In this document: positions 1 through 62,126 of the stretch, piece after piece | Layout: every line of letters starts with the position of its first letter | Position numbering within the stretch: the first letter of the stretch is position 1 | Virus record (IMG/VR): IMGVR_UViG_3300045996_000468 | Location: 1-62,126 of that record | Direction: 5' to 3' (one strand) | DNA from: a virus | DNA length: 62,126 nt | Made by a program: the position numbers and the translations under genes | The notes under the pieces: generated by a model | The model's input: the letters and a program-made list of their open reading frames with translations, nothing else | Databases searched by the model: none | Told to the model about the DNA's origin: nothing

Positions 1-126
1 AAGGCATGCACTGCATACGAATGAGCGCCAACAGGGCGCGGTGACACACAGCGAGACGCAAGAGAATGGCGCGAGAAAAACGATCAGGGACCGTAGCCCG
101 ACGCGGTCCATCGCGCCGAAACGCGG
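1..126. repeat. Terminal direct repeat, left copy
   Basis: Identical to 62000-62125; the next base differs (127 c, 62126 g). An exact overlap of this length fits an assembler overlap from a circular or circularly permuted genome, although a true short terminal repeat cannot be excluded. With 61970-61999 and 127-190 it forms a gene-free stretch of about 220 bp around the join. It contains a small hairpin (GCGCC 25-29 with GGCGC 35-39) and a TATATT at 140-145 without a convincing -35 partner. Confidence 0.95.
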
Positions 127-190
127 CGCGAAATTCGCGTATATTGCGCCTTGAAATTCCAGCGTTTTTCTATCTTTAGGGGCCAAAAGG

Positions 191-460
191 ATGCTTGGTT
201 TTACGCTGAAAGTCGAAATGATCGCCGGCATGTCTATTCAGGACGCCGCGCGCGATCTGGTGGCGATGGCGAAGAAACTCGACTGCGCCGTCGAAGCCCG
301 TTTCAACTATGTGCATGTCGTCGCTTTCCCGAATGATGACGCGGCCGATCTGGCGGCGGCCTATTGGCATGAGAATGAAACCGCGACGCTGGAAAATCCC
401 GGCGTTGCTCACGCGGCGGCCGCGCGCGTTCGTCGGCAGAAGCGCGGTGTTCAGCCATGA
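191..460 (+). CDS. Hypothetical protein, first gene after the join
   Basis: An 89-residue acidic protein with no family I recognise. The ATG at 191 is preceded by AGGGG at 178-182 with good spacing. Its stop overlaps the next start (457), the first of a chain of ATGA or TGATG couplings running to the terminase genes. The middle (residues 10-50) looks like one alpha/beta unit. It probably belongs to the rightward late transcript; the role is unknown. Confidence 0.75.
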   Translation: MLGFTLKVEMIAGMSIQDAARDLVAMAKKLDCAVEARFNYVHVVAFPNDDAADLAAAYWHENETATLENPGVAHAAAARVRRQKRGVQP

Positions 461-636
461 TCGGCAAATCCAGATCAATGACGCTCGCACTTGCTGCGGC
501 AATAGCGGCGGCGCAAATGCCGATGACGCCGCCCGTTGTTAGTCCGGTGGCGAAGCGAAAGGCGAAAGCCGCCAAGATCGACCGCATCAGGATCGCTCGC
601 CCAAAGCGATATCTTGTGAAGGGGCTGCGGCCATGA
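457..636 (+). CDS. Small basic protein with hydrophobic N-terminus
   Basis: A 59-residue ORF. The ATG at 457 overlaps the previous stop (ATGA) and its own stop overlaps the next ATG at 633, which supports translation. Residues 8-20 are an Ala/Leu-rich stretch that could be a signal anchor; the C-terminal half is Lys/Arg-rich. Function unknown. Confidence 0.55.
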   Translation: MIGKSRSMTLALAAAIAAAQMPMTPPVVSPVAKRKAKAAKIDRIRIARPKRYLVKGLRP

Positions 637-845
637 GCGGCAAGACGCAAGTCGCTGTCACGCCGGGCGGCGCGAAGATGATGCGCCAAGCGCACAAGCA
701 AAACCTGAAGGCGCTGAAGTTCATGCACCGGGACGACGAAGCGCTGCGCCTTGAGCGGCAGAAGCGCGCGGCGCGATTGTCGGAAGCGCTGAAGAAACGC
801 GATCAGGCGCGGAGCATGACGCGCGGGCGGACGGGTGACGTGTGA
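633..845 (+). CDS. Hypothetical basic helical protein
   Basis: A 70-residue Lys/Arg-rich, mostly helical protein coupled by ATGA to the gene before it. It ends in RGRTGDV, the same seven residues that end the next protein. The DNA encoding that tail (ACGGGTGACGT) lies directly before each following start, so the shared tail probably reflects a translation-coupling sequence. No family recognised. Confidence 0.75.
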   Translation: MSGKTQVAVTPGGAKMMRQAHKQNLKALKFMHRDDEALRLERQKRAARLSEALKKRDQARSMTRGRTGDV

Positions 846-1024
846 TGACGCCGAAGGAACAATACGAAGCGCGCAAAGCGGAGCGCGACAAGTTGAGAAA
901 TATGGAATTTGAATTCAAGCAGCGCACCGAAACACTGATGCTGCTCGATATGCTCGATCGCTTTGTGACGGCGGCCGAACGCATCGCAGACGCGCTGGAG
1001 CGCGGCCGAACGGGTGACGTATGA
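845..1024 (+). CDS. Hypothetical protein ending in RGRTGDV
   Basis: 59 residues from the ATG at 845 (TGATG overlap with the previous stop); a GTG at 842 is the alternative start. Residues 1-30 are charged helix, the rest amphipathic helix. It shares its C-terminal seven residues with the preceding gene. Probably a small late-operon protein; no function can be assigned. Confidence 0.7.
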   Translation: MTPKEQYEARKAERDKLRNMEFEFKQRTETLMLLDMLDRFVTAAERIADALERGRTGDV

Positions 1025-1278
1025 ATGTGCGCGCGGATGATCCGCTGGAATTGATGATTTCCGACGCGCTTGATGCTGCCGGCGTGGCGTTCATTCGTGA
1101 GCGTGACAACCGCGACCAGCGTCTCGACTTCTATTTGCCGGGGCCGGGCGTCTATATCGAGTGCAAGCAGTTTCACAGCGAGCGCATCAGCGATCAGATT
1201 AGGCCGTTTGCGAATGTGATCGTTATCCAAGGCCGAACGGCCGCTGAGACATTTTGCAAGATGATCGCTCGAAGATGA
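1021..1278 (+). CDS. Small PD-(D/E)XK nuclease-like protein
   Basis: 85 residues. Residues 36-49 read D-F-Y-L-P, five residues, then I-E-C-K, which matches the core of PD-(D/E)XK nucleases: catalytic D36, E47 and K49 on two adjacent beta strands. A conserved Glu upstream (E10) and a Q/H pair after the Lys also fit. The length is near the minimum for the fold, similar to VRR-NUC or Vsr-like domains. It sits just before the terminase genes and is ATGA-coupled on both sides, so a role in DNA processing near packaging is possible. Substrate unknown; the assignment rests on the motif alone. Confidence 0.6.
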   Translation: MNVRADDPLELMISDALDAAGVAFIRERDNRDQRLDFYLPGPGVYIECKQFHSERISDQIRPFANVIVIQGRTAAETFCKMIARR

Positions 1279-1526
1279 CAAAGCCGCTTCCGTACTACTG
1301 CGACGATTGGGATTGCCCGGCGCGCGTGTCGTGCAAGCACGCTTTCGTGCGACAGAAAGAATATGCGGAAATGAAAGACGGCGGATATCGGCTGTCGTCG
1401 GTTGAGGCGGATGGTTTTTATGATCGCAGGCTTCGCAATGACTGCGATCGATACGAACTCGACAAGCCGAAGCCGCATCTTGCGACGTGGTTTGGAATGG
1501 ACTTGATCAACAAAAGGGCGAACTGA
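1275..1526 (+). CDS. Cys-rich hypothetical protein
   Basis: 83 residues from the ATG at 1275, which overlaps the nuclease stop (ATGA). Three closely spaced cysteines near the N-terminus (C-x4-C-x5-C) plus one later Cys could bind a metal. Tyr, Trp and Asp rich. No family recognised. Confidence 0.7.
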   Translation: MTKPLPYYCDDWDCPARVSCKHAFVRQKEYAEMKDGGYRLSSVEADGFYDRRLRNDCDRYELDKPKPHLATWFGMDLINKRAN

Positions 1527-1527
1527 C

Positions 1528-1830: not shown

Positions 1831-2357
1831 TGGCGAAGAAAGCGAAGGCGAAGGCCGCGCCGAAGTTGGCGGGGCTGATCGTGCCGTTGCAGACGCTTGC
1901 GAAGCTTATGGGTGTGACGCCGGCCCGCGTGCACCAACTTGAGCGCGAAGGCATCATCGTCAAGCTTGGTCGCGATCAATACGACGCGCTCGACTGCCTG
2001 CCTCGCTTCATCGCCTATGTGCGCGAAGAGAATAAGCGCAACACGAAGGGAGAGGCGGCGAAGAAAGTTCACGACGTTAAGGCGCGCGAAATCGAAATCC
2101 GGATCGCGAAGGAAGAGGGGCGGCTGATCGACTTGGAAGACGTGGAAGCCGTCATGTCGGAAACATACGGCGCATTCCGATCTGAAATGGACGGACTGCC
2201 GGCGGCGTTCACGCGTGATCTTGATCAGCGCGAAAAACTCGAAAGACTTATTCATGGTTCGTTTGATCGCGTCCGAAGACGGCTTGACGAAGCGAAAGCG
2301 GATAATTTCAGCGGTGAAGACAGCAGCGCTGTGGAAGCCGAAGAAACAAACGCCTGA
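1830..2357 (+). CDS. Terminase small subunit (Nu1-like)
   Basis: 175 residues. An N-terminal winged-helix/HTH region (about 15-55: LAKLMGVTPARVHQLEREG) is followed by a long charged helical region, as in lambda Nu1-type small terminases. The small subunit binds the packaging site and recruits the large subunit. The ATG at 1830 (TGATG overlap, GGGG before it) is preferred over an in-frame TTG at 1827. Its 3' end overlaps the large subunit by about 100 bp. Confidence 0.85.
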   Translation: MAKKAKAKAAPKLAGLIVPLQTLAKLMGVTPARVHQLEREGIIVKLGRDQYDALDCLPRFIAYVREENKRNTKGEAAKKVHDVKAREIEIRIAKEEGRLIDLEDVEAVMSETYGAFRSEMDGLPAAFTRDLDQREKLERLIHGSFDRVRRRLDEAKADNFSGEDSSAVEAEETNA

Positions 2358-4350
2358 TCAATGGGCGCGTGAAAACCGCATCTATGGCCCGGCGACAGGT
2401 TGGCCGGGGCCGCGTGAACCGTCGATCGCGCCTTACAACATTCCGTTCGCGCGCGCGATGGCGACGGGTATGCACGACGGCCGGCGCTACTCGATCGCGG
2501 TTCTGTGCGAGGCGGCGCAGGGCGGCAAGACTGAAGCGATCATGGATGCGATAGGCGAGCGGATGGATAACCGCCCGGCGAATATGCTCTATGTCGGGCC
2601 GTCCGAACTGTTCAACAAACAGCAGTTCGAACCGCGCTTCAATGATCTGGTCAGCGAGGCGCGCTCGCTTCGCCGCAAGATGATCGGCGGAAGCCCGGAT
2701 AGCAAAAAGCAAACCAAGACGCTGAAGCGCTTCGCTGGCGGCCGCCTGCGCCTCGCACACGCCGGATCATCGATGCAATTGAAGAGCGATCCGGCCGCGA
2801 TCGCGTTCGTCGACGAATACGACGAAATGCTCGCCAACGTGAAAAAGCAGGGCGATCCGCTCGGGCTGGTCACGGCGCGCGGCGATACGTTCGCGGACTT
2901 CATAACCGGCGTCACGTCAACGCCATCGGTGGGCATGGTGGAAACCGAACAAGACAAGGCGAGCGGCCTTTGGTTTTGGAAGATTGCCGATCCGGAAGAT
3001 ATCAAGTCGCCCATATGGCGACTGTGGCAAAGCGGCACGCGTCATCATTGGTGCTGGCCGTGCCTGCACTGCGATCGCTACTTCGTCGTGCGCGCCGATC
3101 TGCTGTCCTATCCGGAAGGTGCCACGCCAGCGCAGGCGTCGCGCAACACGCATGTTGCCTGCCCGAACTGCGGCGGCTTGCATGACGAAGGCGACAAGCC
3201 GGCGCTGAACGCGCGCGGGCGATACGTTGCGCCGGGGCAAACGATCGACGTGGACGGCGTTGTGACGGGCGATGCGGCCGACGTATCAACGCTGTCGTTT
3301 TGGGCGAGCGGGCTGGCGTCGCCGTTCGTCACCTTTGGCAAGCGCGTCGAAACGTATCTGACCGCGATCAAGTCGCGCGAAAGCGACAAGATGCAAACCG
3401 CCGTCAACTCGCAATATGGCGAGCTATTCGTCGAAGCCGGCGGCGATCTGCCGCCATGGGAAGAGATCATGCGGCGGCGCTCGCCGTACAAGAGCGAACA
3501 AATCCCGGCCGGGGCGCGCTGGCTCACGTGCGGGATTGACGTGCAGAAAAACCGGCTGGTGTTCGTCGTGCGCGCGTGGGGCCGGCGGGCGTCGTCTTGG
3601 CTGGTGAAGTTCGGGGAATTGCACGGCGACACGACCGGCGTCGACGTTTGGAATGACCTTCGCGCCTTTCTCGCGCAGCCGATCGGCGGCAAGCTGATCA
3701 AGATTGCCTTCATCGACAGCGGCTTCCGGCCCGGCAAGCGCTTCAATGTCCCGGTGCACGCGGTCTATGCCTTCGCCCGTATGCACAGGCGATTTGTGTA
3801 CGCGACGAAAGGCTCGTCGACGCCGCTTGTGCGGCCGATCGTGCAATCGAAGATCGAAGTCAAGACTTCCGGCAAGTTGGAAAAGTACGGGCTCGATCTG
3901 ATGCGTCTTGATCCTGATCACTGGAAAAGTTTTGTTCATGAGCGGCTTGGTTGGCCGCAAGAGCAAGATGGCGCGTGGTTATATCCCGACGACGTCACCG
4001 AACACTACTGCAAGGCGCTGGTCGCAGAAGTGCGCATCATCGATCCGAACGGCAAACCGAAATGGATTGAGCGCTCGAAGGAAAATCACTTCCTCGATGC
4101 GGAAGCACTAGCGGCGGCGGCAGCAAATCTGTTAAACGCTCAATATCTCGGTGGTCGAAAGACTGGGGCGGGGGCGATTGCCGAGAGTGTCGCGCGTGAT
4201 CCGGATCGTGAGGCGGTGACGGTGGAAGAGGGGACGCCGCTGTTGCCGCCTCCATCGAACGACGAAGCGGAAGCGCAGCCAAGGCCGACGCCGCCGCCCG
4301 TAAAGAAGAAACGATCATTTGCGGATTTAGCTCGTAAGCTGAACCGCTGA
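2254..4350 (+). CDS. Terminase large subunit (GpA family)
   Basis: About 698 residues. The packaging ATPase and nuclease that cuts and translocates DNA into the prohead. Walker A-like AQGGKTE (K92) and Walker B IAFVDE (D187, E188) are seen. A Cys-rich patch (WCWPCLHC, then CPNCGG) near residues 265-310 is typical of the GpA family, and a later GIDVQ segment begins the nuclease domain. The Pro-rich acidic tail is variable. Start: ATG 2254 is chosen because family homology begins soon after; GTG 2314 is possible, and a longer start inside the small subunit gene is unlikely. Confidence 0.93.
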   Translation: MVRLIASEDGLTKRKRIISAVKTAALWKPKKQTPDQWARENRIYGPATGWPGPREPSIAPYNIPFARAMATGMHDGRRYSIAVLCEAAQGGKTEAIMDAIGERMDNRPANMLYVGPSELFNKQQFEPRFNDLVSEARSLRRKMIGGSPDSKKQTKTLKRFAGGRLRLAHAGSSMQLKSDPAAIAFVDEYDEMLANVKKQGDPLGLVTARGDTFADFITGVTSTPSVGMVETEQDKASGLWFWKIADPEDIKSPIWRLWQSGTRHHWCWPCLHCDRYFVVRADLLSYPEGATPAQASRNTHVACPNCGGLHDEGDKPALNARGRYVAPGQTIDVDGVVTGDAADVSTLSFWASGLASPFVTFGKRVETYLTAIKSRESDKMQTAVNSQYGELFVEAGGDLPPWEEIMRRRSPYKSEQIPAGARWLTCGIDVQKNRLVFVVRAWGRRASSWLVKFGELHGDTTGVDVWNDLRAFLAQPIGGKLIKIAFIDSGFRPGKRFNVPVHAVYAFARMHRRFVYATKGSSTPLVRPIVQSKIEVKTSGKLEKYGLDLMRLDPDHWKSFVHERLGWPQEQDGAWLYPDDVTEHYCKALVAEVRIIDPNGKPKWIERSKENHFLDAEALAAAAANLLNAQYLGGRKTGAGAIAESVARDPDREAVTVEEGTPLLPPPSNDEAEAQPRPTPPPVKKKRSFADLARKLNR

Positions 4351-4369: not shown

Positions 4370-5995
4370 TTGGGGAAAGTTGCGGCGAAGCGCGGGGGCG
4401 CTTCACGATCGACGGCAACGACCAAGGCGCGGACGAACACGTCTGCGCCTTTAGCGCGTCCGACGACAGCCGACATTGCCACAGCACCGCGCGTCAAGTC
4501 GCAGTATATGCGCGGCGATCGGCATTCGGTCTTTCACGGCTGGAACCCCACACTGCGCCTTGAGCGCGACGACGTTCTCGCAAGCTACGTGAAGGCGGCC
4601 GCGCGCGCGATCGACATTGCGCAAAACCAAGGCTTCATAGCCGGCGGCCTTGAACAAGCCGCAGTGAACATGATGGGCACCGGCTTGCGCTGCTCGCCCA
4701 AGCCCGACGCTGCGGCGCTTGGCTGGTCGCAGGATCAAGCCGACAAGTGGGCGAACGACGTTGCTCGCCGCTTCGAAGCTTACGCGGCTTGTCCCGGCGA
4801 ATGCGACGCCGCAGAAACAAGCACGCTGCATCAACTCGCGCGCGGCGGCATTGACACCTTTTTCAGCCATGGTGAGCAATTGGCGCTGTTGCCGCGCTTG
4901 CCCAACATTGGCGGTGCAATGACGACCGTGCGCGTCAAGATGCTGCCGCCGCATTTGCTCGTTCAGGACAACAACGAAGAGCAAGGCTTGCGGCAAGGCG
5001 TGTTCGAAAACGTGTGGGGCGCGCCGGTCGCCTATAAGATGGATTTATCGAACGGCCGCCGCCTGCCCGATATCATTCCGCGCTTCGACGACGCGCGCCG
5101 CTTGCAGGTTTTCCACTCGCACAATGGCAAGATCGGATCGCCGCGCGGGATCACGCCGTTCGCGCCCGCGCTGCAAGTCGTCAAGCGCCTCGATCAGCTT
5201 TCCGACGCGACGCTGTCGGCCGCGCTGATACAAGCGATCTTCGCCGCCACCGTGAAGAGCAAGGCACCGTCCGAAGACTTGCTTCGCGCGTTGCAGGATG
5301 ATGACGAGCAAGGCGTCGCCGGTTCGTCGCTCGCGTCACTCATGGAAATGAAGGGCGAGTATTACGAGAATTCGAACCTTGACGTGGGCAACAACGGCAA
5401 GATCGCGCATCTGTTTCCCGACGAAGAGTTGACGTTTCACGGTTCGCAGACGCCGAACGATAACTATGAAGCCTTCACGAAGATGCTGTTGCGCGAAATC
5501 GCGCGCTGTCTCGGGCTCACGTTCGAAGAGTTGACCGGCGACTTCACCGCCGCGACGTATTCAAGCGTGCGCATGGCAACGTCAGTGATCTGGCCTATCG
5601 TGATGGCGCGCCGCGAAGTCATTCCCGCGCGCCTCTATCAGGCGGTGTACGAAGCTTGGCTCGAAGACATGATCGTGGCGAACGTCATCGCGTTTCCCGG
5701 CGGCGCGTTCGGCTTCTATGCGAACAAGCTTGCGGCGTGCGGTTGCTACTGGCGCGGCCCGGCGAAGCCACAAGCCGACGATCTGAAGGCGGCGAAGGCG
5801 TACCACGAATATAAATCGATGGGCATCATGTCCGACGAACGCATCGCCGCCGAACTCGGCTTCGACATTGAAGACGAGTACGATCAGCGCAAGAAAGAAC
5901 TCGAAATGCGCAAGGCGCGCGGTTTGCCTGAGCATGACACGATGGCCGAACCTGATCCGGTTGGCGATGCGCTTGTCTCACGTGAGGGCGCGTGA
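4370..5995 (+). CDS. Portal protein (lambda B-like)
   Basis: 541 residues, the usual length for lambda-family portals. The dodecameric portal is the DNA channel at the head vertex and nucleates assembly. The segment around residues 75-110 (NQGFIAGGLEQAAVNMMGTGL) and the region RMATSVIWPIVMARR near residue 400 are characteristic. The start is a TTG at 4370 with GGGGG at 4358-4362; the first in-frame ATG (4508) would remove about 46 residues including conserved sequence. Confidence 0.92.
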   Translation: MGKVAAKRGGASRSTATTKARTNTSAPLARPTTADIATAPRVKSQYMRGDRHSVFHGWNPTLRLERDDVLASYVKAAARAIDIAQNQGFIAGGLEQAAVNMMGTGLRCSPKPDAAALGWSQDQADKWANDVARRFEAYAACPGECDAAETSTLHQLARGGIDTFFSHGEQLALLPRLPNIGGAMTTVRVKMLPPHLLVQDNNEEQGLRQGVFENVWGAPVAYKMDLSNGRRLPDIIPRFDDARRLQVFHSHNGKIGSPRGITPFAPALQVVKRLDQLSDATLSAALIQAIFAATVKSKAPSEDLLRALQDDDEQGVAGSSLASLMEMKGEYYENSNLDVGNNGKIAHLFPDEELTFHGSQTPNDNYEAFTKMLLREIARCLGLTFEELTGDFTAATYSSVRMATSVIWPIVMARREVIPARLYQAVYEAWLEDMIVANVIAFPGGAFGFYANKLAACGCYWRGPAKPQADDLKAAKAYHEYKSMGIMSDERIAAELGFDIEDEYDQRKKELEMRKARGLPEHDTMAEPDPVGDALVSREGA

Positions 5996-6260: not shown

Positions 6261-7610
6261 ATGACTGACGAACGCGCACGCGCACTGTCGTACATTGCCA
6301 ACGCGCTGCAAGCGCCCCTGGCGATCATGCCGGAAAAGCTGGCGGTCATCTTCGGCGTTCTCGAAGGCCGCATCGGCGTCGACGCATCCGACATGCAAAC
6401 GCTGGTCGACGAACGCTTGCTTGCCTACGTGACCAAGCCGAAGTCAAACCGCTTCGTCGGTGACGTTGAATTGGCCGATCCGACGAAGCCTTACGGCAAG
6501 ATCAAGCCGTATCGCACGCAAGCCGGCACGGCGATCATCAACGTTGTCGGCAGTCTCGTTAATCGCGGCGCATGGGTTGGCTCGAAGAGCGGAATGACAA
6601 GCTATGAAGGCTTGACGCATCAGCTTCAGACGGCCGCGCGCGATCCGTCCATCAAGTCGATCGTTCTCGATATCGATAGTCCCGGCGGCGAAGCGGTCGG
6701 CGCGTTCGAAGTCGGCGCGCTGGTCGCGGAAGTGAACAAGACGAAGCGCGTCGTCGCGCACGTCAACGGGCTGTGCTGTTCGGCCGCTTACGCAATCGCG
6801 TCCGGTGCATCGCGGATCGAGGCAACCTCGACAAGCATCGTCGGCTCGATCGGCGTTGTCATGTCGCACTTCGATCAAAGCGCGCGCATTCACCAAATGG
6901 GCATCAAGCCGACGCTGATCTTCGCGGGCGCGCACAAGGTCGACGGCAATCCTCTTGAACCGCTTTCGGCTGAAACGAAGGCGCGCATGCAAGAGGAAGT
7001 GAACAAGTTCTATGAAAAGTTCGTGCAGCAAGTCGTGTCGGGCCGCAAGGCTGCGGGCATGACTGCGAAAATGGTGCGCGATACGGAAGCCCGCACGTAT
7101 GTCGGCAGCGACGCGGTGTCACTGAAACTTGTCGACGCAATCGCAACGTTTGATGCAACGCTTGGCGGCATTCATCGCCGCAGCAAAACGGGGATGACCA
7201 TGGAACCAATCTTCACGCAGGCACAGCACGATCAGCTTGTCGCTTCCGCTGTCGCGAACGCTCGCACTGAGGCAACCGCCGCAGAAGCGACGCGCCTTTC
7301 GACGGAGCATGCGGCCGCGATCGCCGCCGCGCGGATCGAGGGCGCAACGGCCGAACGCCAGCGCATCAATGCCATTCTCGGCATGGATGAAGCGCAGGGC
7401 CGTGAGGCGATGGCGCGCACGATCGCGACGACGACTTCGCTTTCGGTCGACGAAGCCAAGCCGCTGCTCGCCGCCGCGCCGAAGGCCGCGCCCGCCGCCG
7501 GCGGCCCGGTGCCGGGTATCCAGTTCGGTGCGAACTCCGCGCCGCCGAAGGTCAACGCCGCATCGATTTGGGACGATGCGCGCAAGGAAGCGAACGAGCG
7601 TTCGAAGTAA
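6261..7610 (+). CDS. S49-family prohead protease fused to scaffold
   Basis: 449 residues. Residues 85-300 are a SppA/ClpP-fold peptidase: LDIDSPGG (137-143), putative nucleophile Ser174 in CCSAAY, and a candidate general-base Lys226 (AHKVDG). Residues 312-449 are Ala/Glu-rich and helical, typical of a scaffold core. As in lambda C/Nu3, an in-frame start (ATG 7194, or 7200, after ACGGGG) could give a separate scaffold of about 138 residues. The protease matures the prohead and removes the scaffold. Confidence 0.88.
   Translation: MTDERARALSYIANALQAPLAIMPEKLAVIFGVLEGRIGVDASDMQTLVDERLLAYVTKPKSNRFVGDVELADPTKPYGKIKPYRTQAGTAIINVVGSLVNRGAWVGSKSGMTSYEGLTHQLQTAARDPSIKSIVLDIDSPGGEAVGAFEVGALVAEVNKTKRVVAHVNGLCCSAAYAIASGASRIEATSTSIVGSIGVVMSHFDQSARIHQMGIKPTLIFAGAHKVDGNPLEPLSAETKARMQEEVNKFYEKFVQQVVSGRKAAGMTAKMVRDTEARTYVGSDAVSLKLVDAIATFDATLGGIHRRSKTGMTMEPIFTQAQHDQLVASAVANARTEATAAEATRLSTEHAAAIAAARIEGATAERQRINAILGMDEAQGREAMARTIATTTSLSVDEAKPLLAAAPKAAPAAGGPVPGIQFGANSAPPKVNAASIWDDARKEANERSK
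7194..7610 (+). CDS. Candidate internal-start scaffold (Nu3-like)
   Basis: The same reading frame as the protease, beginning at ATG 7194 (MTMEPIF) or 7200. ACGGGG directly before it is a weak ribosome-binding site. The product would be about 138 residues, largely helical with many Ala and Glu, matching the size and composition of lambda Nu3-type scaffolds. The lambda gene arrangement supports it; the start itself is inferred. Confidence 0.45.
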   Translation: MTMEPIFTQAQHDQLVASAVANARTEATAAEATRLSTEHAAAIAAARIEGATAERQRINAILGMDEAQGREAMARTIATTTSLSVDEAKPLLAAAPKAAPAAGGPVPGIQFGANSAPPKVNAASIWDDARKEANERSK

Positions 7611-8438: not shown

Positions 8439-9491
8439 ATGCTCGGCATGAACGTTTTCAACGCAAACGCGTTTCAGCCCGTCGAAATGCTCGCTTCACT
8501 GCGGCGGATCGACTACCGGCCAAGCTTCCTTTCGGGGCTGGCCGGTTTGATCCGGCCCGTGCCGGTTCGCACTGAACACGTGTTCATCGAACAGTCTTCG
8601 CGCGGCTTCCAGATCGTTCCGTTCTCGCCGCGTGGCGCACCGCCGAACCAAGTCGGCGGCGATCTGCGCAACGCGCGCGGTTATCAGACGCTCCGCTTCG
8701 CGGAAGCGTCGCGCATCACCGCTTCCGAACTCTCATTCGTGCGCGAGGAAGGCGAGGAAAACATGGTGAAGGCGGTCGCGACGGAAGTCGCGGCACGTCA
8801 GAACAAAGTCGTGCAGGACATGCAGATCACGAAGGAATATCACCTTCTCAATCTGGTCACGCAGGCGAAAGTGATCGACAGCGACGGCACCACCGTCAAG
8901 TACGATTGGGCGAGCGAATTCAGCTTGTCCATCCCGGCCGAAGTCGACTTCGACCTCGACAACGCAACGCCGGCTTCGGGCGCGCTGCGCAAGAAGTGCA
9001 CCGCCGTTCGTCGCTCGATCGAAATCGCGCTGAAGATGGGCCGCGACGCTGCGGCGCAGGGCGTGCGCATCGTCGGCCTGTGCGGCGATGCGTTTTGGGA
9101 TGATCTGACGGCGCACCCGGAAGTCGAAAAGACGTATCTGAACTGGCAGGCGGCCGCTGATCTGCGCAACGATCACGGCGGCGCATGGCGCACGTTCCGC
9201 TATGGTTCGCTTGAGTTTGTGAACTATCGAGGCACCGATGCCGGCGCGACCGGCGCTTCACTGTCGATCAACACCGATAAGTGCAAGTTCTTCCCGGTCG
9301 GCACTGGCATTTTCCAGCATGCCATGTCGCCCGGCGAGACGTTCCAAGATATCGGGCGTCCCGGTCAAGAGTGGTACTCGATGATCGTGCGCGACAAGGA
9401 TCGCGACATGTGGGCGGACGTGGAAATGTATTCGTATCCGCTCTTCGTCTGCACGCATCCGAACGCGCTCTATCAGGCGCGCCGCACCTAA
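8439..9491 (+). CDS. Major capsid protein (gpE family)
   Basis: 350 residues, typical of the lambda gpE family. Supporting segments are the N-terminal YRPSFLSGL, the central arm with FVREEGEENM, and the C-terminal part with WYSMIVRDKDRDMWADVEMYSYPL. It forms the HK97-fold shell. It has a strong ribosome-binding site (AAAGGGGAAAG) and its own 70-bp leader, in line with high expression. Confidence 0.93.
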   Translation: MLGMNVFNANAFQPVEMLASLRRIDYRPSFLSGLAGLIRPVPVRTEHVFIEQSSRGFQIVPFSPRGAPPNQVGGDLRNARGYQTLRFAEASRITASELSFVREEGEENMVKAVATEVAARQNKVVQDMQITKEYHLLNLVTQAKVIDSDGTTVKYDWASEFSLSIPAEVDFDLDNATPASGALRKKCTAVRRSIEIALKMGRDAAAQGVRIVGLCGDAFWDDLTAHPEVEKTYLNWQAAADLRNDHGGAWRTFRYGSLEFVNYRGTDAGATGASLSINTDKCKFFPVGTGIFQHAMSPGETFQDIGRPGQEWYSMIVRDKDRDMWADVEMYSYPLFVCTHPNALYQARRT

Positions 9492-17919: not shown

Positions 17920-19431
17920 ATGACCGTCGCTTTCAATAACATTCCGGCGAACCTTCGCGTTCCGCTCTTCTATGCGGAAGTGAACGCAGGTCCGAACGCG
18001 TATCAAGGCCAGTCGCGCTTGCTTGTGATCGGGCAGACAACGTCCGGTGCAACGATGGCGGCGAACGCCGTGCAGCTTCTGTCCGATCAGCCGAACACGC
18101 TCGCGGGCTTGGGCTCGCAGCTTGCCGACGCGCTGGTGTATGCGCGGCAGAATAATCCGTTCGGTGAAATTTGGGCGGGCGCGCTCGCTGATCCGGCCGG
18201 CGTCGCGGCAACGCAGACGATCACGATCGGGGCCGGCATTCTCGGAAGCAGCGGCACCGTCGTCGTCTACGTCGCGGGCGAGCGCGTGGAATGCGCGGTT
18301 GCTTCGACCGATGCGAACACGACCGTTGCAACGAACCTCGCTGCCGCGATCAACGCGGGCTATACGAAGTTCGGCCGGCCGATGACGCATCCGATGCTGG
18401 CGTCGGTGGTTTCGAACGTCGTCACGCTGACTGCGCGCAACGTCGGCACGCTTGGAAACAAGATCGGCGTCGACAAGGATTTGGTTGGCGACGAAGGCAC
18501 GTTGCAGACTTACCTCACGATCGCGACCGGCGTCACCGGCACCGGCGTCCCGTCGCTGACGACGCTGCTTGCGAACTGCGGCGATATCGAATTCGACTGG
18601 ATCGCTGCACCGTATGCGGACAGCACGTCGCTGAACTCGATCAAGACGTTCCTCGATGAAATCTCGGGACGCTGGTCGCCGCTGAAGCAGCTTTATGGTC
18701 ACTACCTGACCGCGCTCTTCGATAGCTACGGCAATCTCACGACTGCCGGCGCTGCGCGCAACGATCCGAACGTGTCGATCATGGGCGTTGCGAATTCGCC
18801 TTCGCCGCCGTGGCGCTGGACCGGCGCGCTTGGCGGCGTCGTCTCGCGCTCGAAAAATCTCGGCAGCGAAGTTTCGCAGGCTGTCGAAATCAGCCGGCCG
18901 CTGCAAACGCTGCCGCTGGTCGGCATCCAGCCGCCGAAGGCCAAGACGGATTGGTTCGATATCACAACGCGCAACACGCTCTATCAGAACGGCATCGCGG
19001 GCTTCCGCGTCATGGCCGATCTGACGGTGTTGATCGATCGCGTCGTGACGACGTATCGGCTCAACTCGTTCTCGCAGCCCGATATCACGTGGCTCGACGT
19101 TGAGACGCGTGCACAGATGGTCTACTTCGTGCGCTACATGCGCCAGCGCATCACGCAGAAGTATGGCCGCCACGCGCTCGCCAACGAAAATCCGAACTCG
19201 CAACAGGGTTTGGTGACGCCGAAGATTTTGAAGGCGGAATGCGTTCACGCCTATCAAGAACTCGAAATGAACGGGCTCGTCGAAAACTCCGCGCTGTTCG
19301 CGGCGTCGCTGATCGTCGAACGTTCGAGCGATCCGAACCGGGTGAACGCTTATCTGCCGGTCGACGTTGTCAATCAGTTCCGCGTCTTTGCAGTGAACGC
19401 AACCACGTTCCTGCAATACGAAGCGGCTTGA
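17920..19431 (+). CDS. Tail sheath protein (Mu gpL-like)
   Basis: 503 residues, the normal size for Mu-type sheaths. The N-terminal NIPANLRVPLFYAEVNAGPN and the C-terminal domain (MRQRITQKYGRHALANEN) are typical. The sheath polymer contracts to drive the tube through the envelope. It has its own leader with GGGGGA before the ATG and is followed by a tetraloop hairpin, consistent with high, separately tuned expression. Confidence 0.92.
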   Translation: MTVAFNNIPANLRVPLFYAEVNAGPNAYQGQSRLLVIGQTTSGATMAANAVQLLSDQPNTLAGLGSQLADALVYARQNNPFGEIWAGALADPAGVAATQTITIGAGILGSSGTVVVYVAGERVECAVASTDANTTVATNLAAAINAGYTKFGRPMTHPMLASVVSNVVTLTARNVGTLGNKIGVDKDLVGDEGTLQTYLTIATGVTGTGVPSLTTLLANCGDIEFDWIAAPYADSTSLNSIKTFLDEISGRWSPLKQLYGHYLTALFDSYGNLTTAGAARNDPNVSIMGVANSPSPPWRWTGALGGVVSRSKNLGSEVSQAVEISRPLQTLPLVGIQPPKAKTDWFDITTRNTLYQNGIAGFRVMADLTVLIDRVVTTYRLNSFSQPDITWLDVETRAQMVYFVRYMRQRITQKYGRHALANENPNSQQGLVTPKILKAECVHAYQELEMNGLVENSALFAASLIVERSSDPNRVNAYLPVDVVNQFRVFAVNATTFLQYEAA

Positions 19432-20271: not shown

Positions 20272-20420
20272 GTAGCGAAGAGACGGAAGAGTGGCTTAAC
20301 GGCTGCGACTTTCTTCTGTTCTGGCTTGGGTGGACACCGCAAAGCGTCGAAGCGCTGACGATGCCCGACGTTGCGCACTACCTGACGCGCTACGTCGCGG
20401 CTAAGAAAAGGTGGAAGTGA
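19879..20420 (+). CDS. Tail assembly chaperone, -1 frameshift form
   Basis: The same start as the short form. A -1 slip on T-TTT-TTT (20262-20268) bypasses the stop and adds 50 residues, beginning LSSEETEEW and ending at the stop that overlaps the tape-measure ATG (TGATG, 20418-20422). The total is 180 residues. Mu gp41 and lambda G/GT use the same device, with the long form in the minority. The extension has no start of its own nearby, which supports the shift. Confidence 0.8.
20262..20269 (+). other. Slippery T8 site for -1 frameshifting
   Basis: Zero-frame codons read AGT TTT TTT TGA; after a -1 slip they read TTT TTT TTG AGT. It lies at the end of the chaperone short form, just before the stop. 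Confidence 0.8.
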
Positions 20421-22300
20421 TGGCGACGACGATCGAAGCAAGGGCCATACTTTCAGCCGCCGACAAAACCGGCGGCGTTTTCGCAAACATCGCGCGCAAG
20501 GTCATGGGCATGAACGCCGCAGCCGCGCGCGCAAATCAAACCATGGTCGCGGGCGGCCGCGCGTCCGCGATCGCTGCCGGCGCGTCGCGCAGCGCAGCGA
20601 TGGCGAACGGCGCGGTTCTCGCCGCTGCCGGTCGCGTGCTTGCGCCGGCCGGTGCTGCGATGGCGGGCGGCAAGGCGCTCAAGAATTTTGCCGACGCCGA
20701 TCTTCGCGTGACGCGCATCGGCATCACGGCTGACGCTTCGGCGGAGCAAATCGCCAAGCTTCAGACGGGCCTTCGCATGTTGGGACGCGAAAGCGCACAC
20801 AGCTTCGGTGAAGTCGCGGGCGGCCTCGAAAGCCTTGTCGCGGGCGGCATGGATTTGAAAGACGCAATGAAGGCAATGCCCGCCATCACGAAGACGGCGC
20901 AGGCGGCCGGCGCTGAAGTGCACGACATTGCGTCGACGACGCTTGCGCTCAATCAGAACTTAGGCATCGCCACCGACAAGATGCAAAACGCTTTCGACAT
21001 TCTCGTCAAAGGCGGCAAGGAAGGAAAGTTCGAACTGAAAGACATGGCCGCGCACATGGCATCGATGGCACCGGCCGCCGTCGCCATCGGCATGAAAGGC
21101 GAGGAAGGATTGATGCGCCTTGTCGCCGCGCTGCAAACCGTGCGGCAGGGCAGCGGCAGCACTGAGGAAGCCGCGTCATCGATGCAAAACATCTTCGCCA
21201 AGATGGAAAGCGAAGAGACGACGAAAAAATTCAAAAAGTTCGGCATCGATCTGCGGAAGGAAATGGAGCAAGCCCGCAAAGAGGGGAAAGACTTGCTGCA
21301 AGTGTTCGTCGATCTATCGAACAAGGCGGTGAAAGGCGATCTGTCGAAGGTGCCGCAACTGTTCACCGACATGCAGCTTGCACGCGGCATGCGCGCGCTC
21401 ATGTCGTTCGGGGATTTGAACAAGCGGATTTTGGGAGAGTTGCGCAACAGCGCGGGATCGACCTCGAAGGATTTGAACAAGGTCTTGCAGACGCCGGCCA
21501 TGTCGATCAAGAAACTACAAACGGCATGGGACGATCTGACCGCATCGCTAGGTCACTTCATCGAAAAGCAGGGCAATGCCTCGAAGCTTTTGAAGACGGT
21601 TTCCGATCAAGTGCGCGGCCTCGCGGACGAAGGCTTGTCCGGATTGAACAAGCGTGTCGAAGAGCGCAACGCGCAAGTGCTGCGGGACATGCAGCTTGCC
21701 GGCATCAACAATCAACTGGCGTCGCTTTCCAAGCAGTCGCCCGCCGATCGCGAAGCGGCAATCGCGAAGTGGCGCATGGCGCATCCGGGGAAAGAACTGC
21801 CGCCGGGGCTTCGCGACAGCGGCGGCGCGCTGCGCATGCGCAAGTTCGATCTTGAGCAAGAAAGTCATTGGGCATCGTTTCGCGACATGCCGTCGCTCGA
21901 TGACGATATCGCGGCGCTTCGCGCTGAACGCAAAGCCGCTGAAGACGCGGTCAACAGCCTGCGCGACTACATCAACACGCATCATCCGCAGACGATGAAG
22001 ACGCGCAGCCCGTCCGGAAAGCTTCTGCCGACGCGCGATCCGCGCCGATCGTCGCTTGAAGACGCGGCGGCCGCGTCGCCCGTGCAATCGCTTGAAGTCA
22101 AGACGGAAGTGCATGGCGAAGTGAAGGGCGAAACGGCCGTCACCGTGAAGGTCGAAGCGACAAACGAATTCATGCGCGTTGTCAACGAAGCGAAGGCCGT
22201 CGCGGCGATGGCGGGGCAAATTCGCGGCAACGGCTCGGGCTCGACCGGGCGATCGTCGCCTGATGCCGCGCCGTCGCTTGGCAGCATGGGAGCGCCGTAA
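20420..22300 (+). CDS. Tape measure protein
   Basis: 626 residues from ATG 20420 (GTG 20411 is possible). Residues 75-350 carry the phage tail tape-measure core (ESAHSFGEVAGGLESLVAGG, TVRQGSGSTEEAASSMQNIF). The rest is helical with a Ser/Gly end. It sets tail length; 626 residues predicts a fairly short contractile tail, if the usual proportionality holds. Confidence 0.9.
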   Translation: MATTIEARAILSAADKTGGVFANIARKVMGMNAAAARANQTMVAGGRASAIAAGASRSAAMANGAVLAAAGRVLAPAGAAMAGGKALKNFADADLRVTRIGITADASAEQIAKLQTGLRMLGRESAHSFGEVAGGLESLVAGGMDLKDAMKAMPAITKTAQAAGAEVHDIASTTLALNQNLGIATDKMQNAFDILVKGGKEGKFELKDMAAHMASMAPAAVAIGMKGEEGLMRLVAALQTVRQGSGSTEEAASSMQNIFAKMESEETTKKFKKFGIDLRKEMEQARKEGKDLLQVFVDLSNKAVKGDLSKVPQLFTDMQLARGMRALMSFGDLNKRILGELRNSAGSTSKDLNKVLQTPAMSIKKLQTAWDDLTASLGHFIEKQGNASKLLKTVSDQVRGLADEGLSGLNKRVEERNAQVLRDMQLAGINNQLASLSKQSPADREAAIAKWRMAHPGKELPPGLRDSGGALRMRKFDLEQESHWASFRDMPSLDDDIAALRAERKAAEDAVNSLRDYINTHHPQTMKTRSPSGKLLPTRDPRRSSLEDAAAASPVQSLEVKTEVHGEVKGETAVTVKVEATNEFMRVVNEAKAVAAMAGQIRGNGSGSTGRSSPDAAPSLGSMGAP

Positions 22301-30322: not shown

Positions 30323-30363
30323 AGTTGCATGCGGGATCTTGGGGTTCAACCAATGGGGGCAAA

Positions 30364-39790: not shown

Positions 39791-40546
39791 CTACAGTGAC
39801 ACGCCGCGACGGCGCAATTCGTGTTGGCAAGTGAAGATCATGTCTTCGTCGTCTTTGAACGTGTCGACGATCCATCGCAGATAGCCGGCATCGATCTGAT
39901 CGAACGTCAAATCTTTCAGCTTAGGATCGTTGCGCGTGCCGCCGATCGGTGTCGCTGCGATCCTGCACCGATAGAGTAATGCAGGCTGCGAGCTAATCTC
40001 GATCATGTCAGCGATCGTCAGCTTCGCGAGCGCGCGAACAAGCACGCTCGCAGTGACGAAAGTGTCCGCGCCCGCGCGGTGCGGCGGATGCGCCCGCGCC
40101 GGATCAAGCTTCAAGCGAAGTGCATACGCCATCGCCCAATTTTTATGGCTGTCCAGTTTCGGCGCGAGACGAAGCGAGACTTTCCACGTGCAAATCCATG
40201 GCGCATTCGTCGGCGCGAGATTGGCAAGGCGTTCTCGATCGAAAGATGCCACGTGCGCAGCGTAGGCTTCGATCGGGTCGACCGTTCCGTCTTTATGCGT
40301 GAATGGCTCGTAAACGCCATGATCGCGGATCACTTCGGAAAGCAACGGCTTCCCCTTCACGTCTTCGTCGACAATATGATGCGTCGCCATTGCGCCGAAC
40401 TCGATCAAGCAACCGGGATCGACCAGCCATGACCGCGTTTGCCCGATCGTCCATTCGCCATCCGTCATCCGAAAAACATCGGTGTGCGCTATCTCGACGA
40501 CTTCGCCGTTCAGCCCGGTTGTTTCAGTGTCAAGAACTCGCAACAT
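39791..40546 (-). CDS. ExoX-like DEDDh 3'-5' exonuclease
   Basis: 251 residues. LDTETTGL (Asp6, Glu8) is Exo I of the DnaQ/ExoX fold, and HRAGADTFVTA gives the DEDDh His and Asp. The C-terminal segment (YLRWIVDTFKDDEDM) looks like the DUF3820-type add-on seen in phage ExoX. It trims 3' ends of DNA. GGGGGAA precedes ATG 40546. The pentamer-repeat region lies directly upstream. Confidence 0.85.
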   Translation of the reverse strand: MLRVLDTETTGLNGEVVEIAHTDVFRMTDGEWTIGQTRSWLVDPGCLIEFGAMATHHIVDEDVKGKPLLSEVIRDHGVYEPFTHKDGTVDPIEAYAAHVASFDRERLANLAPTNAPWICTWKVSLRLAPKLDSHKNWAMAYALRLKLDPARAHPPHRAGADTFVTASVLVRALAKLTIADMIEISSQPALLYRCRIAATPIGGTRNDPKLKDLTFDQIDAGYLRWIVDTFKDDEDMIFTCQHELRRRGVSL

Positions 40547-50464: not shown

Positions 50465-50539
50465 GTCCCCGTCTTCTAGCGGTTAGGAAAGCGGCCTTTC
50501 ACGTCGCAAACGCCGGTTCGAACCCGGCCGGGGACGCCA
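50465..50539 (+). tRNA. tRNA-Glu (anticodon UUC)
   Basis: A 75-nt cloverleaf including an encoded CCA. Acceptor GTCCCCG/CGGGGAC pairs perfectly; D stem TTCT/GGAA; anticodon stem GCGGC/GTCGC with loop CTTTCAC (anticodon TTC); T arm GCCGG-TTCGAAC-CCGGC. It lies on the + strand inside a leftward gene region. GAA is the main Glu codon in the structural genes, which this tRNA reads, so it may supplement the host. Confidence 0.95.
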
Positions 50540-54011: not shown

Positions 54012-55505
54012 TCAGTGCGCGCCAACGTCGATTGCCGGCGCTTCCCATGGCGTCGCCGCCATCAATGCCTTGACCATCTGCGGATAGCCGAACACCGCGA
54101 ACAACACCGGCACCGATGGCATGGGGCCGGGATCACCGATCAGAAGATCAGTGAAGTTGATGATCAACGTCGCGTCGCTGTGATGCTCTTCGACGTAGCG
54201 ATATGCGGGCCTCATGTCGGTGCCGCCGCCGCGTATCGAGGCGAACTCGATATCGTCGCCGGCCGCGTACTCGTCAACGCGGATAACTTGCGTGTCGCAA
54301 TAGATCACGACGAGTTCATTCAAGATGCCTTCATCCATCACCGCTTGCACTTCGTCGCGTACCATCGCTTGCGCAATGTCGTCGACCGAACCGGAAACGT
54401 CATTGATGATGACAACCTTATTGATGCCGTCGCGCTGCGAGCCCGGCAGCATGACGCCGCGCCCGATAAAGCGCTTGTTCGGGCGGTTCCAAGTTTCGAT
54501 CCGCTCCGCGCCTTGATCGAAGAAAGCGCGAAGCTGTTCACGCCAATCTTGCGGGCGATTGTTCGAAGCCTCAATCTCGCGCGCAACATGCGCCGGCAAC
54601 TGGCCGACGCCGCGCGATATCGATGCGGCTTGGCGCATGATCCGCTCCCAATTGGGCGCGGGCGCTTCGCCTAGCTCCGGTTCAGGCGCGTCGATAACTT
54701 CACCGCAGCTAACGCGCTTGCCTGAAGTGTTCGGAACGCCTTCGCCTTCGCCGCCGTCTTCACCGGCCGCGTCGCCGTCAGCTTCGCCAGCTTCCGCGTC
54801 GCCACGATCAGAATTGCCGCCCGTGGCGTCATCACCGGCTGCATCCCCGTCGCCGTCAGCACCGCCGCTCGATGCGCCAGCGTCTTCGCCATCGCTCGCG
54901 TCATCGCCTGCACCTTCACCGGATGCGTCGCCGTCGTCTTCGGACGCATCGGCCTCGTCGTCGGCTTCGGTTTGTTGATCGCCATTATCGATAGCGTCTT
55001 CAGCGGATCGCGCGCCATCCTCTTCCGCATCGTCGCCCGCGTCACCGGCATTGTCGTCTTCCTGCTGTTGCTGCTGTTGCGCCTGCTCTTCCAGTTCAAG
55101 CGTGCGATAAATGTCTTCGGCGGACATGCCGGCGAAGCGCGGATCATAAAAGCTGTCGGCCGGAAGCTTGAAGCCTTCAGCCTTCAGGTCGCACATGATC
55201 GAATAGTCGCACGACTTATTCCATCGCTTCGGATCGCGGCCCGCGCGGCGTGATGAATGCTGCCGCGCGTCGTGTTCGGTTTCTTCCGCGATGACCGTCA
55301 GCAGTTCGTCTTGATCGAGCGTCGCGACATAGTCGGGATTATAGAAGTGATGCACGCTATCGGTTGCCAGTGTCGCATGCTTGCGCGACAAAACCGGCGT
55401 CGTGTTCGTCACCAGCACGCCATAGAAGCGGCGCGACAGGATCAATTCGGAACGTGCCTTCAAGACGCGCTCTGTGGCGAGCGCGTCAATCTCTGTGCGG
55501 TCCAT
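54012..55505 (-). CDS. VWA / DUF2201-type metallopeptidase-like protein
   Basis: 497 residues from ATG 55505 (leader GGAGCAAACACA). Residues 20-135 are the putative metallopeptidase part (WNKSCDYSIMCDLKAEGF, YDPRFAGMSAEDIYR). In the family the active site is HExxHxxxxH; here it reads EETEHDARQH (84-93), with Glu84 in place of the first His. Residues 150-275 are an acidic Asp/Gly/Ala linker. The C-terminal VWA-like domain has the MIDAS motif DVSGS and GGGTD. Partner of the MoxR ATPase encoded upstream. The lost His suggests it may not be a peptidase. Confidence 0.82.
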   Translation of the reverse strand: MDRTEIDALATERVLKARSELILSRRFYGVLVTNTTPVLSRKHATLATDSVHHFYNPDYVATLDQDELLTVIAEETEHDARQHSSRRAGRDPKRWNKSCDYSIMCDLKAEGFKLPADSFYDPRFAGMSAEDIYRTLELEEQAQQQQQQEDDNAGDAGDDAEEDGARSAEDAIDNGDQQTEADDEADASEDDGDASGEGAGDDASDGEDAGASSGGADGDGDAAGDDATGGNSDRGDAEAGEADGDAAGEDGGEGEGVPNTSGKRVSCGEVIDAPEPELGEAPAPNWERIMRQAASISRGVGQLPAHVAREIEASNNRPQDWREQLRAFFDQGAERIETWNRPNKRFIGRGVMLPGSQRDGINKVVIINDVSGSVDDIAQAMVRDEVQAVMDEGILNELVVIYCDTQVIRVDEYAAGDDIEFASIRGGGTDMRPAYRYVEEHHSDATLIINFTDLLIGDPGPMPSVPVLFAVFGYPQMVKALMAATPWEAPAIDVGAH

Positions 55506-55544
55506 TGTGTTTGCTCCGGTTAATTGTGCCATTCTTCCCGGCAA

Positions 55545-56474: not shown

Positions 56475-57512
56475 TCAGGCGGCTTGAACGATCAGGTCTT
56501 GGTTTTTGATCGCCCAATTTGTATAGGCCGTCGTATTCTTCAGGCGCTTGTCGCGCGTCGTTGCGTCGTGAACGACCAGCAATTGAAACTCGCGCGGCAG
56601 TCGGTTGGCGTATGCGACGACGTTGTCGAAGTTCTTTGTCGTCGCCATGCGTGCGATCGCGGTGCAGATCGCATAGCGCAGTGAAGGCTCGCTAGGAATG
56701 AGCGCGTTCTGCGGATCGCGCACAAACTTTTCAACGTCGCCCACTGTCTCATACAGATCGAGGAACGCGTCGAAGTCGGCGGCGGCAACGTCGCCAACAT
56801 GGCCGGCGATCACGCCGAAGCGAATGTCGCGATCTGCATCGATGCACTCGCCAGCCTTTTCCCATGAGCGCGGCGTCGGGAACGAGTTTTCATCGCCCTT
56901 CGGCATCACGTGGAAAATATCGCGCTCGCGCAATTGCAGGAAGGCAACCAAGATCGGGCTAACGCCTTCGCGGTTAGCCCATTCCTTCCACGCTGCAAAG
57001 TCGGGCTTGACGTGAATATGCGCGAAGCGATTGCGCAACGCTGTCGGCATCCGCTGCGCGGCCGCTCGATCGCTCACGCGGTTGCCCGATGCGATGACCG
57101 TCCAGCCTTCCGGCAACACATAGTCACCGATGCGGCGTTCAAGCACCAAGCCCATCATGACCGCCATCATTTGCGTGGTGCCGGTGTTAATCTCGTCGAT
57201 ATACAGAATGCCGAACTCGCCATCGCGATCAACGCGCGGCAGTTCGTCGGGCACATACCATCGCGTCGTGCCGGTCTTTGCATCCGGCATCGGAATGCCG
57301 CGCACGTCGACCGGCTCGCGAATGTTGGTTTTGAATTCGATGATCTTGCACTTAAGTTCGCGGCCTAGCTGCCACACGCTTTGCGTCTTGCCGATGCCGG
57401 GCGCGCCCCACACCATGCAGGGGTGACGCTTGCCGACATAGAACTTCATCATCGCGTAGCACTGCGCGATCGTGTATTCGCGGGCGGACAGGTTTGTAAT
57501 TGCTGGCGACAT
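56475..57512 (-). CDS. MoxR-family AAA+ ATPase
   Basis: 345 residues from ATG 57512 (GGAGAAAAAACA). Walker A GAPGIGKT (36-43), Walker B ILYIDE (102-107), sensor 1 within VIASGNR and an Arg finger candidate in ALRNRF. MoxR ATPases act with VWA proteins as chaperones that insert metals or remodel complexes. With the DUF3150 and VWA genes it forms a three-gene cassette. Confidence 0.9.
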   Translation of the reverse strand: MSPAITNLSAREYTIAQCYAMMKFYVGKRHPCMVWGAPGIGKTQSVWQLGRELKCKIIEFKTNIREPVDVRGIPMPDAKTGTTRWYVPDELPRVDRDGEFGILYIDEINTGTTQMMAVMMGLVLERRIGDYVLPEGWTVIASGNRVSDRAAAQRMPTALRNRFAHIHVKPDFAAWKEWANREGVSPILVAFLQLRERDIFHVMPKGDENSFPTPRSWEKAGECIDADRDIRFGVIAGHVGDVAAADFDAFLDLYETVGDVEKFVRDPQNALIPSEPSLRYAICTAIARMATTKNFDNVVAYANRLPREFQLLVVHDATTRDKRLKNTTAYTNWAIKNQDLIVQAA

Positions 57513-57546
57513 TGTTTTTTCTCCGTTGATGTTTGGCGACTTCGTT

Positions 57547-57720
57547 TTACTTTGTGACCGTGATCTTGATATCGATCGACGTGTAATCCTTTTCGGCAAT
57601 CGCTTGCCGAAGTTTCTCCTGCAACAGGCGATCGTCCAGCGCGTCATATGTCGGCGCGCTGATCGGATGCGGTTCGTCGGCGTATGTGAACTTGGCCTCG
57701 AACTTATATCTTCGGCTCAT
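57547..57720 (-). CDS. Hypothetical small protein
   Basis: 57 residues. ATG 57720 has the exact leader GGAGCAAACGACA. Beta strands flank a helix. It lies between the membrane peptide gene and the ATPase. Function unknown. Confidence 0.65.
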   Translation of the reverse strand: MSRRYKFEAKFTYADEPHPISAPTYDALDDRLLQEKLRQAIAEKDYTSIDIKITVTK

Positions 57721-59417: not shown

Positions 59418-59506
59418 TGATGACGCACCTAGCATTGTTCGCGTACTTCGCCGCGTGCGCTGCCGCTGTCGTGCTGATCTGTTATCAGCCAACCGAACGG
59501 CGTTGA
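59417..59506 (+). CDS. 29-residue membrane peptide
   Basis: A short hydrophobic peptide (ALFAYFAACAAAVVLICY) starting at ATG 59417, overlapping the previous stop (TGATG), with GGGGAAG upstream. Too short to assign. Confidence 0.4.
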   Translation: MMTHLALFAYFAACAAAVVLICYQPTERR

Positions 59507-59509
59507 TCT

Positions 59510-61238: not shown

Positions 61239-61459
61239 AGGGCGCGCCGTTCTCAAACCTAATTCGCAAATCATCAGGCGGTGGCGCTGGCGATGATCAC
61301 GCCGACGCAATGCTCGCGATGGATCGCGAAGACGAACACGAAGCGATCGATCGCGCTCACTGGAATGCGCACGTTGCGCGCATTCGATTGTTCAAGGTGA
61401 CGATCGGCATTTTGACGGCGTGTTTGCTGATCATCACAGCCGCAGCGGTGCTGCGATGA
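61235..61459 (+). CDS. Tail-anchored membrane protein
   Basis: 74 residues: a charged N-terminal 50 and one C-terminal membrane span (about 52-73, FKVTIGILTACLLIITAAAV). Function unknown; ATGA overlaps on both sides. Confidence 0.6.
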   Translation: MKGAPFSNLIRKSSGGGAGDDHADAMLAMDREDEHEAIDRAHWNAHVARIRLFKVTIGILTACLLIITAAAVLR

Positions 61460-61521
61460 CTGTGCCTCACGTGCCGTTGCTGGTGGCCGCTGTCGCTCTA
61501 TACGCATGGTGCATCCTATGA
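61456..61521 (+). CDS. 21-residue membrane peptide
   Basis: MTVPHVPLLVAAVALYAWCIL, ATGA-coupled upstream and overlapping the next ATG at 61518. Very short; real only if translation coupling is accepted. Confidence 0.35.
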   Translation: MTVPHVPLLVAAVALYAWCIL

Positions 61522-61838
61522 CGACGACAATGAAGGGCGAATGCGAGCATTGTCTAAACAAAGACAAGAGCCGCTATCGCACGCAATGCAAGTATGTTGG
61601 CGACTATCCATCGCGCCGCGCCTTCGTGCTGTCGACGTTTGATGCGCCGTGTGTATGCGATGCGTTCGACATTGCTCGATCACATCGCACGCTCATGCAG
61701 CGGCTTAGGCGCGTGCGCTGTTGGTTGCGCGGGTATCATCGCGACACGCCGACGATTGGCGCATTCCGTTATGACGTTGATGGCATGTGCTGCGACTGCG
61801 GAAGAGTAGGCACGGGACACAGCGAAAGGGGCGAGTGA
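61518..61838 (+). CDS. Cys-rich hypothetical protein
   Basis: 106 residues from ATG 61518. CEHC and CKY near the start, CVCDAF in the middle and CCDCG near the end suggest two zinc sites. Function unknown. Confidence 0.6.
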   Translation: MTTTMKGECEHCLNKDKSRYRTQCKYVGDYPSRRAFVLSTFDAPCVCDAFDIARSHRTLMQRLRRVRCWLRGYHRDTPTIGAFRYDVDGMCCDCGRVGTGHSERGE

Positions 61839-61969
61839 TGAAGCCGACAACGATCGTATCAATGACAATGACCTTTGTGGTGGCTGTCACCGGGTTCGTA
61901 TTCGGCTGGCTCACAGCGGAGCTAGCGGACACGACTGTTCGGCTGTTCGCATCGATGCTTGCAGGGTGA
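61838..61969 (+). CDS. 43-residue membrane peptide
   Basis: One membrane span (about 8-28, TFVVAVTGFVFGWLTAELA). ATG 61838 overlaps the previous stop (TGATG); AAAGGGG is upstream. Last gene before the join. It could be a small holin-like or regulatory peptide. Confidence 0.5.
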   Translation: MKPTTIVSMTMTFVVAVTGFVFGWLTAELADTTVRLFASMLAG

Positions 61970-61999
61970 CAGCGTGGGGCGCTTCCCCTTCCCGTGGTG

Positions 62000-62125
62000 A
62001 AGGCATGCACTGCATACGAATGAGCGCCAACAGGGCGCGGTGACACACAGCGAGACGCAAGAGAATGGCGCGAGAAAAACGATCAGGGACCGTAGCCCGA
62101 CGCGGTCCATCGCGCCGAAACGCGG
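62000..62125. repeat. Terminal direct repeat, right copy
   Basis: Exact copy of 1-126, so the genome is a circle of about 61,999 bp. Confidence 0.95.
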
Positions 62126-62126
62126 G

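Follow-up and report, generated by a model that had tools for sequence, protein, structure and literature searches.

Complete loss of GANTC and near-complete loss of eleven other palindromes from the genome of an uncultivated myovirus

The IMG/VR record analysed here, a 62,126-bp stretch from an uncultivated myovirus with 60% G+C (hereafter the window), contains no GANTC site. Since GANTC is palindromic, this exact count on one strand covers both strands. Eleven other palindromes of the Type II restriction kind are nearly or entirely gone as well. We favour, with a probability of about 0.58, the explanation that the GANTC purge protects the phage from being cut at unmethylated GANTC by hosts that carry CcrM, and that self-methylation can substitute for the purge. 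The features of the window are as follows.

1..62126, no strand: GANTC-free phage genome, 11 other palindromes also nearly gone (counts, shuffles)
2215..4350, + strand: terminase large subunit, marker for finding relatives (phrog_15, E 1e-152)
4370..5995, + strand: portal protein (phrog_21, 9e-83)
6261..7610, + strand: head maturation protease (phrog_53, 8.6e-107)
6317..6321, no strand: sole remaining CCWGG site (exact count)
8439..9491, + strand: major capsid protein, gpE type (phrog_29, 5.6e-33)
17920..19431, + strand: contractile tail sheath, myovirus (phrog_165, 1.1e-134)
20411..22300, + strand: tape measure protein
25744..26871, + strand: baseplate wedge subunit (phrog_6)
29414..30322, + strand: endolysin (phrog_1224)
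30334..30339, no strand: sole remaining RGATCY site (exact count)
32949..33998, - strand: RecT-like annealing protein
34105..35085, - strand: exonuclease VIII-like protein, PDDEXK fold (DUF3799)
39791..40546, - strand: DNA polymerase exonuclease subunit-like protein (RNase_T)
50465..50539, + strand: tRNA-Glu gene, anticodon TTC
54012..55544, - strand: DUF2201 metallopeptidase/VWA-like protein
56475..57647, - strand: AAA ATPase adjoining the VWA protein

The expected number of GANTC sites in the window was 146 with a maximal-order and 256 with a second-order Markov model. To control for codon content, the 95 genes that a simple gene caller made for this analysis identified, covering 83% of the window, were shuffled synonymously within each gene, and 300 such shuffles contained 90.6 ± 6.9 sites, with a minimum of 73. 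The 10.9 kb outside the called genes likewise lacked GANTC. The other 15 GANXY five-mers were not equally depleted, being present at 0.69–1.54 of expectation, other XYNY'X' palindromes were found at 0.52–1.01 of expectation, and GATC was plentiful (746 versus ~613 expected). The absence of GANTC, the abundance of GATC and strong selection against GANTC had all been proposed in an earlier note on this DNA; the exact counts bear out the first two, and the counts together with the codon-preserving shuffles support the third. The loss was synonymous and proceeded via codon choice in all three frames: serine codons following Asp or Glu were AGY in 64 of 64 cases, compared with 242 of 804 (30%) elsewhere; A?T codons were never used between G and C (0/184, elsewhere 475/2728); and NTC codons never followed xGA (0/38, otherwise 1914/3826).

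The earlier note had further regarded the gap as specific to GANTC, which does not hold genome-wide, since no fewer than 11 further Type II-like palindromes are purged too. These are CCWGG (1 observed/52 expected), CCGCGG (0/60), GGCGCC (1/66), RGATCY (1/45), GACGTC (1/38), CAGCTG (1/17), TGGCCA (0/15), CTGCAG (0/13), CGTACG (0/11), GGGCCC (0/9) and ACCGGT (0/9). Together with GANTC, at least 12 words are purged, with 5 sites in total versus ~592 expected. We take these words to be the sites of HinfI, EcoRII, SacII, NarI, BstYI and MscI, and of PstI, AatII, BsiWI, ApaI, AgeI and PvuII. The site counts are thus far below an expectation controlled for composition and codons, and the words avoided are palindromic sites of the kind that orthodox Type II enzymes recognise; the loss of at least 12 such sites suggests that the phage lives under many restriction specificities. 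Full or almost full loss of orthodox Type II sites has been described for roughly one phage genome in ten (PMC6286503). The window resembles these phages in its complete or near-complete loss of palindromic sites, here by means of synonymous codons, but in it 12 or more specificities are gone simultaneously, and its headline site belongs to a usually solitary host methyltransferase, the matching nuclease being a postulated one. Three relatives (L011, L084 and L080; terminases ~43–50% identical) lack nearly the same palindromes (GANTC, CCWGG, CCGCGG and GGCGCC) and look as though they and the window face a similar restriction repertoire.

Terminase relatives of the window were found in the Rhizobium subbaraonis genome, on a contig of 43.6 kb (50% identity), and on plasmids of Pseudochrobactrum (55%) and Methylobacterium (44%). 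Because of these locations, the host range of the window is likely alphaproteobacterial and CcrM-bearing, as judged from terminase sequences. The earlier note had expected GANTC to help identify the host; the site alone named none, and it is the DNA carrying the relatives that makes this range likely. No named phage showed DNA-level similarity to the 20–44 kb part of the window that was searched, and a plasmid megablast for hosts of the relatives G008 and G037 returned nothing useful. A cyanobacterial host, prompted by Microcystis phage Mae-JY30 and by Synechococcus-labelled relatives, was rejected: the HIP1 motif GCGATCGC occurs 22 times in the window, against 14.9 ± 3.3 in shuffled sequences (2/100 reached this number) and 20 expected from a second-order Markov model, and is therefore not markedly enriched.

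To place the zero count, we compared observed/expected ratios (O/E; second-order Markov) in other DNA. Four non-alphaproteobacterial phages and two Pseudomonas phage-plasmids had O/E values of 0.56–0.92, and Wolbachia phage WO, whose host belongs to an order without CcrM (PMC5537653), had 0.89. The remaining alphaproteobacterial phages and plasmid stretches mostly had 0.14–0.56, with exceptions up to 0.85. Chunks of R. subbaraonis DNA contained 262 of 898 expected sites (0.29), 40 kb of the phage contig from this species only 7 of 178 (0.04), and 20-kb stretches of the Pseudochrobactrum plasmid, one of them holding the relative, 0.14–0.47. Alphaproteobacterial DNA is thus already low in GANTC and the purge goes beyond this level, the window (0/256) lying below the 0.29 of R. 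subbaraonis, a relative's host. Similarly purged are CRP-811 (2/90), HTVC011P (1/85) and Mae-JY30 (0/239). The alphaproteobacterial phages with an MT-A70 gene, RHph_TM3_3_3 (0.25), RC1 (0.22) and RcMeacham (0.71), are at or above host level and do not discriminate.

The window shares its near-absence of GANTC with GANTC-depleted pelagiphages and the Pelagibacter NP1 prophage (PMC9516812), which are phages of CcrM-bearing alphaproteobacteria. It differs from them in being a myovirus of another lineage with 60% G+C and a count of absolute zero, and its relatives add a link to phage methyltransferases. HTVC011P (loci L168, L169) also lacks GATC (0/81), and HTVC010P (L160, L161) lacks CTNAG (0/113). 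The terminase of Mae-JY30 (PP438422) is 48% identical to that of the window, and both genomes are free of GANTC; unlike the window, Mae-JY30 retains most of its CCWGG, CCGCGG and GGCGCC sites and carries ParB/methylase genes. This phage (PP438422.1; L024, L025) has 66% G+C, lacks HIP1 sites and has relatives on alphaproteobacterial DNA, and its composition suggests that its true host may be an alphaproteobacterium associated with the recorded cyanobacterium.

Three terminase scans yielded ~150 loci, many with near-zero GANTC. Among 41 near-complete records of relatives (G022, G033, G064 and G071 being counted on ~22 kb only), GANTC was purged (O/E <0.1) in 24, which exceeds the ~3-fold depletion of host DNA. 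A comparable rate was seen only for GGATCC (15 of the 25 relatives with enough sites expected); it was lower for RGATCY (17/41), GGCGCC (14/40) and CCGCGG (13/40), and the remaining purged sites varied from phage to phage. The sister genomes G012 and G013 have 0 versus 14 aligned GANTC sites, and 24 versus 16 CCWGG sites. In the closest pair, G054 and G065, GANTC is present 29 versus 0 times and CCWGG 26 versus 2 times, so that a host change could explain both differences.

Retention of GANTC in the relatives goes along with certain methyltransferase genes. In the first 24 records, an MT-A70, DUF4942 or p027-type methyltransferase was present in 8/8 genomes with O/E ≥0.36 and in 0/16 with O/E ≤0.15; as the three families had been picked once a motif scan of the genomes retaining GANTC had been made, these records are not an independent test. 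For a second batch the prediction was written beforehand. None of its 13 purged records had the three families, as predicted, but the positive arm failed, with 0/4 among the firmly predicted carriers (L289/L290, L298, L338): the record of L289 has a PF01555 methyltransferase, that of L338 an HsdM and a ParB-methylase, and in that of L298 no methyltransferase was found. In the pooled set of 41, MT-A70, DUF4942 or PhiLM21_p027-type genes were present in 8 of 11 records with O/E ≥0.3 and in none of 30 with O/E ≤0.20 (Fisher p 1.7e-6 without correction for kinship, and 1.1e-4 once close kin had been collapsed by hand). When 998 palindromic motifs were ranked by this association, GASTC, GANTC and GAWTC occupied places 1–3 (AUC 0.94–0.98; next motif 0.88). 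Retention of the site switched at least 5 times along supported branches, and 3–5 independent pairs point in one direction and 0 in the opposite one, too few for significance (phylogenetic sign test p 0.06–0.25). A counterexample is G004 (L008; 17.5 kb, outside the 41), which has 1 of 57 expected GANTC sites and yet a DUF4942 methyltransferase.

The idea that any amino-methyltransferase explains retention was rejected, because ParB-type and other PF01555 methylases are present in purged relatives (G001, G003, W01, G033, G035 and G069); the m5C methyltransferase (PF00145) showed no correspondence with GANTC state in the relatives. Record G007 (O/E 0.12) contains an open frame of 1035 residues (L224:6909-10013) that includes an NPPF motif and may encode a Type IIG or PglX-like methyltransferase.

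The GANTC specificity of PhiLM21_p027, of which G025 and G013 carry homologues, was shown experimentally (PMC5537653). Sinorhizobial and Ochrobactrum phages with GANTC methyltransferases (PMC5537653, PMC7139368) thus concern the same site as the purge in the window, in alphaproteobacterial hosts, but the window lost the site instead of carrying such a gene. No DNA methyltransferase was found in it with PF01555, PF05869, PF05063, PF13708, PF00145 or PhiLM21_p027, and a motif scan gave no plausible candidate. For the families searched, the window therefore lacks the m6A methyltransferase gene of GANTC-methyltransferase-encoding phages, in line with the earlier note, which saw no methylase gene in it.

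Which process removed the site can be judged against three alternatives. Drift in composition without selection might appeal to the ~3-fold GANTC depletion of alphaproteobacterial DNA itself, but it is refuted by the codon-preserving shuffles (0 versus 91 ± 7) and by the normal frequency of neighbouring five-mers, which leave it practically no chance. Another explanation, which we consider unlikely, dispenses with a nuclease and invokes a cell-cycle conflict, in which phage GANTC titrates CcrM or the methyl-GANTC reader GcrA, or alters transcription. It would account for GANTC being among the most frequently purged sites in the group, CcrM occurs in nearly all alphaproteobacteria and methylated GANTC is bound by GcrA (PMC5537653, PMC9836097), and some pelagiphages are GANTC-depleted although Pelagibacterales have no recognised R-M systems (PMC9516812). 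However, neither titration nor an effect on promoters resembles an absolute purge through all coding sequence, eleven palindromes of the restriction kind that are unrelated to GANTC have been purged as well, and a self-methylating phage would supply GcrA with methylated GANTC, yet such relatives retain the site.

Equally improbable in our estimate is that the methyltransferase genes are non-causal and mark host class, the purged relatives living in CcrM hosts with GANTC restriction and the keepers in other bacteria, where MT-A70 enzymes are carried by phages coincidentally. The relatives are uncultivated, the non-alphaproteobacterial phages and phage-plasmids have O/E values of 0.56–0.92, MT-A70 is common in Vibrio phages, and G054 and G065 differ in CCWGG too. 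Against this, the isolates whose MT-A70 comes closest to that of G026 are phages of Rhizobium and Rhodobacter, the keepers (O/E 0.36–0.59) lie at or under the low end of the non-alphaproteobacterial range, and in G012/G013 the GANTC difference (0 versus 14 aligned) is not paralleled by CCWGG (24 versus 16).

Avoidance of cutting is thus the reading we prefer. Unmethylated GANTC on incoming phage DNA would be cut or otherwise fatally recognised in the hosts, which are most likely alphaproteobacteria that keep their own GANTC methylated by CcrM; as CcrM methylates the host sites, a putative GANTC-specific nuclease would be harmless to the host without a partner methylase. The phage would have responded by removing GANTC through synonymous substitution, and relatives with their own m6A methyltransferase, presumed to act on GANTC, would protect the site chemically and hence show no purge. 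The methyltransferase association, a correlation across few independent lineages, suggests that the selected-against state is unmethylated GANTC rather than CcrM methylation as such; under restriction one would expect just this, a purge of unmethylated sites that self-methylation relieves. The earlier note's appeal to strong selection by the host methylation or restriction state thereby keeps its selection and, from the methyltransferase correlation, is refined to cutting of unprotected DNA.

CcrM is the textbook example of a solitary, regulatory methyltransferase. Despite this label, a large share of the phages of this group behave as though unmethylated GANTC were lethal. Avoidance of recognition sites (PMC6286503), pelagiphages depleted in GANTC (PMC9516812) and GANTC methyltransferases encoded by phages (PMC5537653, PMC7139368) have been published; this analysis adds the loss of a dozen sites in this lineage and a motif-specific association with methyltransferase genes. 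Should the division into purging and self-methylating phages hold, GANTC methylation would also mark self against phages, which makes a testable case, and the specificity of several uncharacterised phage methyltransferases would be predicted. It is a speculative, rather doubtful extension that alphaproteobacteria share a widespread putative nuclease against unmethylated GANTC with CcrM as the self-marker, their phages either purging the site or self-methylating it by MT-A70, DUF4942 or p027 enzymes. If this were true, CcrM would also serve as the modification partner in a distributed restriction system.
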